NCBI RefSeq assembly: GCF_024749165.1
Contig: NZ_CP087190.1
Span: 5,615,501 to 5,679,500 of the forward strand
Direction: 5' to 3'
Source of the DNA: Pseudomonas sp. B21-023
GTDB lineage: Bacteria > Pseudomonadota > Gammaproteobacteria > Pseudomonadales > Pseudomonadaceae
DNA length: 64,000 nt
Shown here: positions 2,909 to 49,856 of the stretch, in pieces
Layout: every line of letters starts with the position of its first letter
Numbering within the stretch: position 1 is the first letter of the stretch
Notes under the pieces: model-generated
Told to the model about the DNA's origin: nothing
Seen by the model: the letters and a program-made list of their open reading frames with translations, nothing else
The model's database searches: none
Position numbers and translations under genes: made by a program

Positions 2909-3810
2909 AGATCGCTGTGCTGTCGCGCAATCCGCGTCTGTATTCCACCCGCCGCCTGGTCGAGGCCGGTACCCAGCGGGGCCACGAAGTGGTGGTGATC
3001 GACACGCTTCGGGCCTACATGAACATTGCCAGCCACAAGCCGCAGATCCACTACCGCGGCAAACCCCTGGAAGGCTTCGACGCGGTCATTCCGCGCATCG
3101 GCGCATCGGTCACCTTCTATGGCTGCGCGGTGCTGCGCCAATTCGAGATGATGGGCGTCTACCCGCTCAACGAATCGGTGGCCATCGCCCGCTCGCGGGA
3201 CAAGCTGCGCTCGCTGCAATTGCTGTCGCGGCGCGGTATTGGCCTGCCGGTCACCGGCTTCGCCCACTCGCCGGACGACATCCCCGACCTGATCCAGATG
3301 GTCAACGGCGCGCCGCTGGTAATCAAAGTGCTCGAAGGCACACAGGGCATCGGCGTGGTGCTGTGCGAAACCACCAAGGCCGCCGAGTCGGTGATCGAGG
3401 CGTTCATGGGCCTGAAGCAGAACATCATGGTCCAGGAGTACATCAAGGAGGCCGGTGGCGCCGATATCCGCTGCTTCGTGGTCGGCGACAAGGTGATCGC
3501 CTCGATGAAGCGCCAGGCCAAGCCGGGCGAGTTCCGCTCCAACCTGCATCGCGGGGGCGTGGCCAGCCTGATCAAGATCACCCCTGAAGAACGCATGACC
3601 GCGATTCGCGCAGCCAAGGTGATGGGGCTGAGCGTGGCGGGTGTGGATATCCTGCGTTCGAATCATGGGCCGCTGGTGATGGAAGTGAACTCGTCGCCGG
3701 GCCTGGAGGGGATCGAGGTGACTACCGGCAAGGACGTGGCCGGGATGATCATCGAGCACCTGGAAAAGAACAGCGGGCCGAATCAGACGCGGACCAAGGG
3801 CAAGGGTTGA
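2905..3810 (+). CDS. rimK: RimK, S6 glutamate ligase
   Basis: ATP-grasp ligase that adds glutamate residues to the C-terminus of ribosomal protein S6, changing translation and the proteome. The 301-residue protein has the RimK pre-ATP-grasp domain ([20 protein letters not shown]) and the ATP-grasp core, with [13 protein letters not shown] near 136-148, [28 protein letters not shown] near 191-218, and the metal-binding end [14 protein letters not shown] near 260-273. It overlaps rimB by four bases. No rimA gene precedes the pair. Confidence 0.92.
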
Positions 3811-46246: not shown

Positions 46247-46834
46247 ATGTTTGCACGCCTTTCCCTCGCCGCCCTCGCCATTGCCCTGGTCAGCGGCTGC
46301 AGCACCCCTTCGCCGGTTCTCGGCGGCAAGAACATCAGCTACGGCGACAGCAAGGCTGTCGAGCTGGTCACCAACGAGTTCGGCTCCACCGACCTGCAGA
46401 TGATCGCCGAGAGCATGACCCGCTCGCTGGCCCAGTCCGGCGTGCTGCACGGCCGCCCGGTGGTGCAGGTGTACGACGTCAAGAACAAGACCAGCGAGTA
46501 CATCGATACCCGCGAGATCACCACCTCGATCAAGACCCAGCTGATGAAGTCCGGCGCCGCCCGCTTCGCCAGCGACAACACCGACATGCAGAGCCAGGTC
46601 GACCAGCTCAAGCTGCAGAACCAGAGCGGCCTGTACAAGAAGAAGACCGTGGCCAAGACCGGCAACATGATCGCCGCCAAGTACCGCCTGGAAGGCTCCA
46701 TCAGCTCGATCGTCAAGCGCAGCAGCGACTACAAGGACGTGTTCTACAAGTTCAGCCTGCAGCTGATCGACGTGGAAAGCGGCCTGGCCGAGTGGATGGA
46801 CGAAAAAGAAATCCGCAAGACCACGGAGCGCTGA
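46247..46834 (+). CDS. lpoB: LpoB-like penicillin-binding protein activator
   Basis: 195-residue outer-membrane lipoprotein; lipobox LVSGC (Cys18). The core has GSTDLQMIAESMTRSLAQSG and GRPVVQVYDVKNKTSEYIDT, and YRLEGSISSIVKRSSDYKDVFYKFSLQLID, the LpoB fold. In E. coli LpoB stimulates the peptidoglycan synthase PBP1b. P. aeruginosa uses the unrelated LpoP for this, so its role here must be tested. Between the YcfL-like gene and the next periplasmic protein gene. Confidence 0.75.
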   Translation: MFARLSLAALAIALVSGCSTPSPVLGGKNISYGDSKAVELVTNEFGSTDLQMIAESMTRSLAQSGVLHGRPVVQVYDVKNKTSEYIDTREITTSIKTQLMKSGAARFASDNTDMQSQVDQLKLQNQSGLYKKKTVAKTGNMIAAKYRLEGSISSIVKRSSDYKDVFYKFSLQLIDVESGLAEWMDEKEIRKTTER

Positions 46835-46837
46835 TCG

Positions 46838-47581
46838 ATGCGTGCATGGATGGCAATCATTGGCCTGGCCTGCGCCTTCGGCGCGCAGGCGGCCCCCAAG
46901 GTGGCGGTGACCGACCTGGCCTACCAGGCGCAGGTGGAGGAATACATCCACACCATCAACGCCCAGAGCAGCGGCCAGGCTGGCATGTACCACGCCAGCG
47001 GCCAGTCGAGCTACAGCGAGTACGAGAGCCTCAACAGCTACATCGAGCAGACCGAACTGCGCAAGTTCGGTGGCGACATCAAGGGTGAGATCCTCAAGAC
47101 CGGCATGTTCCAACTGGTCCAGGGCCGCCCCTACACCGCCGACTCGAAGGAAGACGTGTACGACGTGATCCGCCGCATCAAGAACGGTGCGTTCAAGGGC
47201 GCCGACTACGTGCTGTTCGGCACCCTGTCGGACATCGACTTCCAGCAGGACATCAACTCGCTGGATCACACCGACAGCTACTCGGCGGTATTGGGCCTGA
47301 CCGTGGTCGCCGACTTCAGCCTGATCAACACCCGCACCTACGAGATCACCTCGGCGTTCACCGCCATGGGTGAGGGGCAGGACACCAAGCTGGTGAAAAG
47401 CCAGGACCGCCGCGTGACGCTGAACCGTCCGCGGGTGGTGCGGGATGTGTCGAAGGCGCTGGGCGAGGATGTTGCGCAGCAGCTGGCCGAACAGTTGGGC
47501 GGCTCGGTGCCCGGGCAGGCGAAACAGCCGCGTGGGCGGGACAACCTGCCGCCGGATGAGCCGGCGCGGGTGTTGAACTAA
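46838..47581 (+). CDS. Periplasmic CsgG/LpoB-like protein of unknown function
   Basis: 247 residues with an N-terminal signal peptide (MRAWMAIIGLACAFGAQA); Cys12 is not in a good lipobox context. The mature part (KVAVTDLAYQAQVEEYIHT; GEILKTGMFQLVQGRP; GADYVLFGTLSDIDFQQDINS) shares the alpha-beta layout of LpoB/CsgG domains. Last gene of the operon, three bases after lpoB. The Pro/Arg tail (KQPRGRDNLPPDEPARVLN) is low complexity. Annotated homologues are hypothetical. Confidence 0.7.
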   Translation: MRAWMAIIGLACAFGAQAAPKVAVTDLAYQAQVEEYIHTINAQSSGQAGMYHASGQSSYSEYESLNSYIEQTELRKFGGDIKGEILKTGMFQLVQGRPYTADSKEDVYDVIRRIKNGAFKGADYVLFGTLSDIDFQQDINSLDHTDSYSAVLGLTVVADFSLINTRTYEITSAFTAMGEGQDTKLVKSQDRRVTLNRPRVVRDVSKALGEDVAQQLAEQLGGSVPGQAKQPRGRDNLPPDEPARVLN

Positions 47582-47650: not shown

Positions 47651-47752
47651 CCGGGGCCGCTATGCGGCCCTTTCGCCGCGCTTCGTCGCCACGACAAGCC
47701 GGCTCCCACAGGGATCGGAGCAGCTTTTGTGGGAGCCGGCTTGCCGGCGATG
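47651..47752. repeat. Left inverted arm of the RAYT unit (terminator hairpin plus REP pair)
   Basis: From GGGCCGC-TAT-GCGGCCC-TTT (47654-47673) through CACGACAAGCCGGCTCCCAC to GTGGGAGCCGGCTTGCCGGC. The whole is a close reverse complement of 48331-48432. The outer hairpin with TTT also fits a terminator for the lipoprotein operon. Confidence 0.85.
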
Positions 47753-47785
47753 AGGCCAGCACAGGCAACCATGACAGCTACCCAT

Positions 47786-48241
47786 TCAAAGCCAGATGGC
47801 ATCCCAATGCGGATAATCGCCGATCCTCTCAACCAAGCCTGCCCGTTTGGGATTCATGACAATGTAGCGCGCAACAGCGCGCACATCTTCCTCACGCCGT
47901 AATGCCCGATCATGAAAGCCTTGCTGCCACAGGCGACCGGTGCGCCTCTGATATCCATTGATCATCCGCGTACTGCGCGACTTGACCCTGCGCATCAGCG
48001 TTTTCAGATCCACGTCCCCAAGCTCCACAAGCCAGTGAAAATGATCTGGCATCACAACCCAGGCCAGCGAACGGGCGATGCCTTCTTGCTCCACAGTGCG
48101 CAACTGCGCAATCAGCAACCGAGCCGATCGCAGATCGACCAGATACGGCACGCGGTTCAAGGTCTTGCTGGTGAGCAGGTAAAGCCTGCCTGGTTCGGAG
48201 AACCTGCCACGCCTGAGTTGATCGGAATGAGGACTATCCAT
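47786..48241 (-). CDS. REP-associated tyrosine transposase (RAYT)
   Basis: 151 residues of the Y1/TnpA-REP family of HUH single-strand nucleases. The metal-binding HUH pair is in VVMPDHFHWLVELG (His66/His68), and the candidate catalytic Tyr is in RAVARYIVMNPKRAGLVERIGDYPHWDAIW. N-terminal RRGRFSEPGRLYLLTSKTL is typical. It is flanked on both sides by REP-containing inverted arms. RAYTs are domesticated enzymes that cut and move REP sequences; this copy appears intact. Confidence 0.9.
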   Translation of the reverse strand: MDSPHSDQLRRGRFSEPGRLYLLTSKTLNRVPYLVDLRSARLLIAQLRTVEQEGIARSLAWVVMPDHFHWLVELGDVDLKTLMRRVKSRSTRMINGYQRRTGRLWQQGFHDRALRREEDVRAVARYIVMNPKRAGLVERIGDYPHWDAIWL

Positions 48242-48330
48242 ATGCCTGCTCCTGTTGATGACAGGTCAGGCTAGTTCCCTCAGCGGGCGAGGCGTAAATG
48301 GAGTGACACGTGATGTTTCTGTGTTGCCTC

Positions 48331-48432
48331 CATCGCCGGCAAGCCGGCTCCCACAGGGATCTGTGCAGCCTTTGTGGGAGCCGGCTTGTCGTGGCGGCGA
48401 ACCGCGACGAAAGGGCCGCACAGCGGCCCCAG
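48331..48432. repeat. Right inverted arm of the RAYT unit (REP pair plus terminator hairpin)
   Basis: CATCGCCGGCAAGCCGGCTC through GTGGGAGCCGGCTTGTCGTG to GGGCCGC-ACA-GCGGCCC (48413-48429). Nearly the reverse complement of the left arm over about 100 bases. Read on the minus strand the outer hairpin ends in TTT and would terminate the efflux operon. Confidence 0.85.
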
Positions 48433-48437
48433 GGATT

Positions 48438-49856
48438 TCAGGGCCTGGCGCTATTCTTCCAGCCGCCGCCCAAGGCCAGGAACACGCCAATCTGCCCCAT
48501 TGTCACCTGGCTGTTGGCCGCCGCCAGCTGCGCCCGTACATCGGTGTAGGTCCGCGTCGCCTGCAGGTCGGCCAGGAACGACTCACGTCCTACCTGATAG
48601 CGCAGATGGGTCTGGTCCGCCGACTCCTTGGCGGAGCGCTCCGCCTCGGCCAACGCATCACGCCGGTCGAGCAATGCGCTGTATTGCGCCAGGCGGGTCT
48701 GGGTTTCGCGAATGGCATTCAGCACCACCCCATCGAAATGCGCCAGCGCCGCCTGGGTCGAGGCCTCGGCCATGCGGATGCGCGCGCGGGTGCCGTTGGT
48801 GGGGATGGTCCAACTGACCTGCGGGCCGAAGCCCCAGCGGTTGGTGGCCGGCTCACCGAGGTTGTCGAGGATGCCGATGGTGCCCACCTGGGCGCCGATG
48901 CTGATATCCGGGTACAGCGCGCCGGTGGCCACACCGATGGTGGCGGTGGCTGCCGCCAGCTGGCGTTCGGCCTGGCGCACATCCGGGCGGCGCTTGAGCA
49001 GAGCCGCACCATCGCCGACCGGAACCAGTTGCGACAGCTGTGGCAGCTCGGCGCAATCGGCGGTGCCGGCAGGCAATTGTTCGACAGGCTTGGCCAGCAA
49101 CGCGGCGAGGGTGTAGAGGCCAGCCTCACGCTCGGCCTTGAAGCGCGGCAGCTCGGCGCGCAGCGACTTGAACTGGGTCTGCGAACGGGTGACCTGGCTC
49201 TCGTCGCCACGCCCGGCATCGCGCAGGCGCTGGGTCAGCTGCACGCCCTGCTGCTGCAGGTCCAGCGACTCGCGGGCGATGTGGTATTCCTCGTTGGCCG
49301 AGCACACCTGGGCATAGGCCTTGACCACATCGGCCACCAAGGTGATGCGCGCGGTGTCGGCAGCGGCCTGCACGGCATCGGCATTGGCCTTGGCGGTCTC
49401 GGTGCCGCGTTTGAAAGTCCCCCACAGGTCGAACTGGTAGCTGGCGCTGATGATCGCCTCGCCGATGTTGGCCACCGGCACTTTCTCCGGCAGCAGGAAC
49501 GCTTCGCCGGACTCCTGCAGGCGCTGGGCACCCAGCTTGACGCCACCATTGAAGCCACCCTGCGATTCGGCCACCTCCACCTGGGCGCGGGCCTTGGCGA
49601 TGTTGGCGGCAGCCACGCGCAGCTCGGTGTTGGCACCGAGCGCCTCGCGCACCAGCTGGTTGAGCCGTTGATCCTGATACAGCTGCCACCAGTCCTCGGG
49701 CACTGGCGCCGAGACCACGCTGTCGGCGTCCTGGCGCAGCGGGCCGTTGAGGTCGCCGCGCTGCACGGCGGCCTCCTTGGGCAGCTGGTAGTCCGGGCCG
49801 ACCATCATGCAGGCGCCGAGGGACAGGCACAGCCCCGCCAGGATCAATTGTTTCAT
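48438..49856 (-). CDS. OprM/NodT-type outer-membrane efflux lipoprotein
   Basis: TolC-like channel of 472 residues. Lipobox LSLGAC (Cys16) followed by MMVGPDYQLP typical of NodT/OprM lipoproteins. Two long coiled-coil repeats of the family are visible (NQLVREALGANTELRVAAAN; AQTRLAQYSALLDRRDALAEA region). Last gene of the efflux operon; its start overlaps the HlyD gene by four bases. Confidence 0.9.
   Translation of the reverse strand: MKQLILAGLCLSLGACMMVGPDYQLPKEAAVQRGDLNGPLRQDADSVVSAPVPEDWWQLYQDQRLNQLVREALGANTELRVAAANIAKARAQVEVAESQGGFNGGVKLGAQRLQESGEAFLLPEKVPVANIGEAIISASYQFDLWGTFKRGTETAKANADAVQAAADTARITLVADVVKAYAQVCSANEEYHIARESLDLQQQGVQLTQRLRDAGRGDESQVTRSQTQFKSLRAELPRFKAEREAGLYTLAALLAKPVEQLPAGTADCAELPQLSQLVPVGDGAALLKRRPDVRQAERQLAAATATIGVATGALYPDISIGAQVGTIGILDNLGEPATNRWGFGPQVSWTIPTNGTRARIRMAEASTQAALAHFDGVVLNAIRETQTRLAQYSALLDRRDALAEAERSAKESADQTHLRYQVGRESFLADLQATRTYTDVRAQLAAANSQVTMGQIGVFLALGGGWKNSARP

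Follow-up and report, generated by a model that had tools for sequence, protein, structure and literature searches.

Mirrored arms around a Pseudomonas RAYT gene as probable copies of a dispersed REPIN-hairpin composite at a chromosomal REPtron

Does a transposase gene enclosed by two long, mirrored arms mark a mobile element? The question is raised by positions 47651-48432 of the window, by which we mean the whole 64,000-nucleotide stretch of Pseudomonas sp. B21-023 DNA analysed here. A sequence-only reading had seen in these positions one self-contained 782-bp unit. We consider it very probable that the locus is instead a chromosomal REPtron, that is, a domesticated Y1 HUH RAYT, vertically inherited and flanked by REPINs that the RAYT most likely maintains. 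We favor this reading because the locus and the positions of its REPINs are conserved, the active site is intact, the gene bears the signs of purifying selection, and orthologs of the RAYT and REPINs of this class tend to occur together.

The gene between the arms (47786-48241, minus strand) is an intact open reading frame of 151 amino acids, as the sequence-only reading had it, and belongs to the RAYT (TnpA-REP) family. The protein matches Pfam Y1_Tnp (PF01797; E 1.3e-8), and its sole match in a phmmer search of the PDB was the E. coli TnpA-REP structure 4er8 (E 1.5e-10). Residues H67 and H69 align with the HUH motif of 4er8 and Y126 with its tyrosine position, which we take to be the catalytic residue of that protein; the Y1 domain, the HUH motif and the one catalytic tyrosine that mark a RAYT are all present. 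Values of dN/dS against seven orthologs run from 0.02 to 0.14, and from these sequence comparisons we judge that purifying selection is acting on the gene across relatives. A dicodon gene model trained on this same genome misses the gene, reflecting either atypical codon usage or a gene too short for the model.

A genome search found two RAYT-family genes in all. The second (G000:C1:2650794-2651246, locus L032) belongs to the same protein family and is 59% identical to the window RAYT, but the REPs near it are of another class (GGATGAATCCGCTCCTACA type) and it lacks mirrored arms of the window type. RAYTs are known as single-copy, vertically inherited genes (PMC8049555), and the window RAYT fits this description: the genome search, synteny, graded identity and dN/dS point to one copy per REP class, vertical inheritance and purifying selection. 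It is also flanked, as RAYTs are, by REP pairs in inverted arrangement, and REPs of their class are plentiful in the genome.

The mirror itself is real and far beyond chance. The arms were recognized from their alignment and from the dispersed family to which they belong. In a global alignment, the left arm (47651-47752, plus) and the reverse complement of the right arm (48331-48432, minus) share 89 identities, with 11 mismatches and 4 single-base gaps. Expressed as 89 in 100 aligned columns with 4 one-base gaps, this bears out the earlier claim of close reverse complements over about 100 bases, and base by base the 89% identity compares with a floor of about 75% set in advance. Toward the inside the mirror persists in weaker form, up to about 118 aligned columns. 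A repeat search returned the inverted blocks 47646-47710/48373-48437 and 47728-47764/48319-48355, each at 89%. Compared with shuffled sequence, the arms fold with z scores of -4.9 and -5.7, and the REPIN hairpins alone with -5.7 and -6.5.

From the outside in, each arm consists of a hairpin (GGGGCCGC-N3-GCGGCCC, then TTTCG), the consensus element CGCCGCGGTTCGTCGCCACGA, which breaks up the palindrome of the outer REP, the REPIN, and an intact inner REP that terminates in GCCGGCGAT. The left outer hairpin (GGGGCCGC-TAT-GCGGCCC, then TTTCG; 47653-47670) was assigned from sequence, fold and the genome-wide pattern, and its mirror copy on the right (48413-48430) from sequence, fold and position statistics. 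REPINs, as defined by Bertels and Rainey (PMC3116915), lie at 47692-47746 and 48337-48391, confirming the REP pairs claimed earlier. Repeat search and folding show the left REPIN, on the plus strand, to hold two GTGGGAGCCGGC-type REPs with a stem of 16 to 18 bp and a 17-nt loop; repeat search, fold and loop scores place the right REPIN with its loop in the same orientation, also plus. The inner REPs read GTGG-GA-GCCGGC-TT-GCCGGC-GAT, and the repeats have the 5′ GTRG and short palindrome of the GT[A/G]G class of REPs, the palindrome being interrupted in the outer ones.

Much of the mirror arises because a REPIN is itself palindromic. The 17-nt loops, however, lie in direct orientation, within a 55-nt direct repeat at 91% identity, and score +11 as direct against -5 as inverted copies. 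The mirror is therefore broken at the centers of the arms, which hold direct-oriented cores between inverted flanks. The outer hairpin and inner REP pair proposed for each arm are thus upheld as a composite, but not as a continuous mirror image.

Copies of this composite are dispersed through the genome. When the left arm was searched against it, with 40 of 334 candidates scored, there were at least 74 matches at E ≤ 0.001. Among the 40 scored, at least 18 places besides the two arms carry the composite from hairpin through REPIN, and 4 of these dispersed composites outscore the right arm as a match to the left, with 1 more tying it. Since the genome has just two RAYTs and the second lies elsewhere, these copies are without a RAYT. 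The exact outer-hairpin pattern occurs 32 times, against 0 for a reversed control. A census over 1.2 Mb of sampled stretches of the genome gave 72 REPINs with 45 hairpin-bearing sides, and 9 of the REPINs, the two arms included, carry the degenerate outer REP together with the hairpin.

The two halves of each arm seem to have different histories. Compared with a consensus of 34 sequences, the outer half of each arm has 3 deviations, none of them shared, and each has copies elsewhere in the genome that are as close as the opposite arm or closer. To judge from these comparisons, the outer halves look like independent draws from a common repeat pool. The REPINs differ in this respect: the likeness between the loop of one arm and that of the other exceeds what is seen in 99.5% of loop pairs, and the two REPIN cores therefore probably share a local origin.

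Why should two such composites face outward at one place? The genes on either side converge on the RAYT locus. To the left is an uncharacterized plus-strand gene without a Pfam match (46838-47581), downstream of lpoB (46247-46834; LpoB Pfam match), and to the right a minus-strand gene for an outer membrane efflux protein, OEP (48438-49856; Pfam OEP, E 4e-40). The left outer hairpin lies 71 nt past the stop at 47581, and the right one adjoins the stop of the OEP gene at 48438. Placed against genes predicted with an iterated dicodon model, whose positions are approximate, 35 of 40 hairpin sides in the sampled genome face a gene 3′ end, mostly 30 to 58 nt from the REPIN core. With the same predictions, gaps between convergent genes hold 40 of the 67 intergenic REPINs, compared with 104 of 493 intergenic gaps overall; REPs are known to be common between convergent genes (PMC1525189). 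Given that the neighbors converge and that hairpins face 3′ ends, the genome-wide rule predicts two composites with their hairpins outward.

These positions bear on the earlier proposal that the outer hairpins terminate transcription of the flanking operons. A strong stem rich in G+C near gene 3′ ends fits, and a terminator role is plausible on the strength of position; on the other hand, the stem is followed by TTT only, and a terminator scan made no call. An Rfam search of the RAYT region gave nothing above chance.

Relatives, sampled as one genome per species, place the RAYT in a wider frame. Orthologs adjoin the same OEP gene in several of them, and synteny together with graded identity suggests that the RAYT has been inherited vertically at one locus. 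In most orthologs an inner upstream REP lies at about -98 to -127 from the RAYT and the first downstream REP at +27 to +71. REPINs are kept at similar distances where the outer hairpins are altered or missing. In the sister species (L063) each side bears a hairpin; the interrupted outer REP, present in both window arms (47675-47693 and 48390-48408), is found in neither of its arms. In L064 there is no hairpin upstream of the RAYT, and the loop of its downstream REPIN (about 3497-3553), compared by eye, fits the window loops (47692-47746) as reverse complement only, as though an in-place inversion of the REPIN core separated the two species. The RAYT, always beside the OEP gene, is codirectional with it in L063-L066 and faces it in L067, L068 and L072-L075, and this difference between clades implies one or more rearrangements of the locus.

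Two further observations concern the neighbors. In some relatives a match to the Rfam C4 antisense RNA (RF01695; L145 3258-3345, L146 3154-3241, and L149 1198-1283 on the minus strand) lies downstream of the OEP gene and precedes a small ORF. In L055 (G011:C4, about 1359802-1361204), a homolog of the 46838-47581 gene is followed by three tandem partial copies of its C-terminal half.

REPIN abundance also bears on the role of the RAYT. A strict REPIN pattern has 76 forward matches in the window genome and 71, 33 and 24 in G025, G007 and G009, whose RAYTs are 88, 71 and 68% identical to that of the window, but 0 to 2 in the close relatives G024, G003, G065 and G045, which are without a RAYT at the locus. 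Cognate REPINs thus appear to be abundant in most relatives bearing an ortholog and nearly absent from close relatives that lack it. Counting against the REPtron reading, as do the likeness of the two REPIN loops and the rearrangement of the locus, G057 has a 78% identical RAYT and almost no matches; the REPs of G057 are of the AGCTCCCACA type, which so strict a pattern misses, and this probably explains the shortfall. Some genomes without an ortholog of the window RAYT have 7 to 20 matches, apparently to other REP classes.

How would such a REPtron work? By analogy with E. coli TnpA-REP, the RAYT would nick single-stranded REP DNA beside the GTGG tetranucleotide, and nicking would duplicate or move REPINs in trans; the RAYT most likely maintains the REPIN class that flanks it. 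The RAYT gene itself would stay put, without movement as a unit. Each REPIN is joined to the 3′-end hairpin of one convergent neighbor, a composite common in the genome, and the two composites, facing each other, resemble terminal inverted repeats. One can imagine a further consequence, to which we give a small chance of being correct: that the mirrored composites place the RAYT segment under its own repeats, which would shield it from read-through out of both convergent operons or permit rare inversion between the arms, with turnover of REPINs and hairpins tuning RAYT expression.

Arms 89% identical in inverted orientation around an intact transposase are what one would expect of a mobile 782-bp transposon, moving as one unit with the long arms as terminal inverted repeats (TIRs). 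We nevertheless regard this as extremely unlikely. The unit occurs once in the genome, the other RAYT being just 59% identical and set among a different class of REPs; arm copies without a RAYT gene are numerous and lie at many unrelated places; and orthologs stay at the locus, whereas the outer hairpins in relatives are changed or missing. These observations led us to reject the self-contained unit proposed by the sequence-only reading, which had itself named gene-free arms at unrelated positions in most relatives as telling against a unit; our gene-free arms, seen within the same genome, come near to that. With the REPIN cores direct rather than inverted and no deviations shared by the outer halves, the arms are not matched transposon ends, and we know of no use of long TIRs by Y1 elements of the IS200/IS605 type. 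A TIR transposon should be found at different sites and leave empty ones, but the closest orthologs have the OEP gene as their neighbor as well. The comparison with relatives suggested earlier, made through both neighbors in 115 genomes, yielded no clean empty counterpart of the window site, because the lpoB-operon gene and the OEP gene are not adjacent in relatives without the RAYT; in this sense no empty site can be defined.

Could gene conversion or recombination between the two arms have preserved their likeness and left the RAYT segment able to invert? The unusual likeness of the REPIN loops, the degenerate outer REP present in both window arms and neither L063 arm, and the varying orientation of the RAYT relative to the OEP gene between clades would all fit. 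A test for shared deviations, which conversion between arms should leave, found none in the outer halves; 3 private deviations in each are what independent copies of a common repeat would show. The cores, moreover, are direct, unlike their flanks, and clades with opposite RAYT orientation differ in their neighbors too, so that a simple flip between arms would not suffice. We consider this explanation very unlikely. There is a slim chance that the repeats serve the two operons alone, as terminators and stabilizers of mRNA 3′ ends, with the RAYT a bystander. The hairpin sides do face gene 3′ ends, but REPINs lie at similar distances around the RAYT in relatives with different outer hairpins or neighbors, and among close relatives REPIN abundance tracks the RAYT ortholog.

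The locus closely resembles the REPtrons of E. coli, P. fluorescens and P. putida in having a Y1 HUH protein that keeps the HUH motif and the tyrosine, a conserved locus, and flanking inverted REP pairs of a genome-abundant class. Nothing essential differs; the window REPINs are additionally joined to an outer G+C hairpin. The long mirrored arms had been thought the unusual part, but Di Nocera et al. 2013 (PMC3733652) already describe long inverted repeats around the RAYTs ppf 607 of P. putida and pfs 4255 of P. fluorescens. In their account, the repeats come from degenerate GTAG-1 units that lie next to stem-loops unrelated to them, and those genomes hold hundreds of such structures. Likened to the window arms by this description rather than by sequence, they too join degenerate GTAG-type REPs to unrelated stem-loops in mirror image on the two sides of a RAYT, and hundreds more occur elsewhere in the genome.

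Long mirrored arms are thus known in kind, and the window locus is best read as an ordinary Pseudomonas REPtron of long inheritance. A transposase between long mirrored arms need not mean transposon ends; here, a composite repeat that recurs across the genome supplies both arms, one copy facing the other between convergent genes. The locus can be used to trace the joining and the replacement of REPINs and 3′-end hairpins beside a conserved RAYT.
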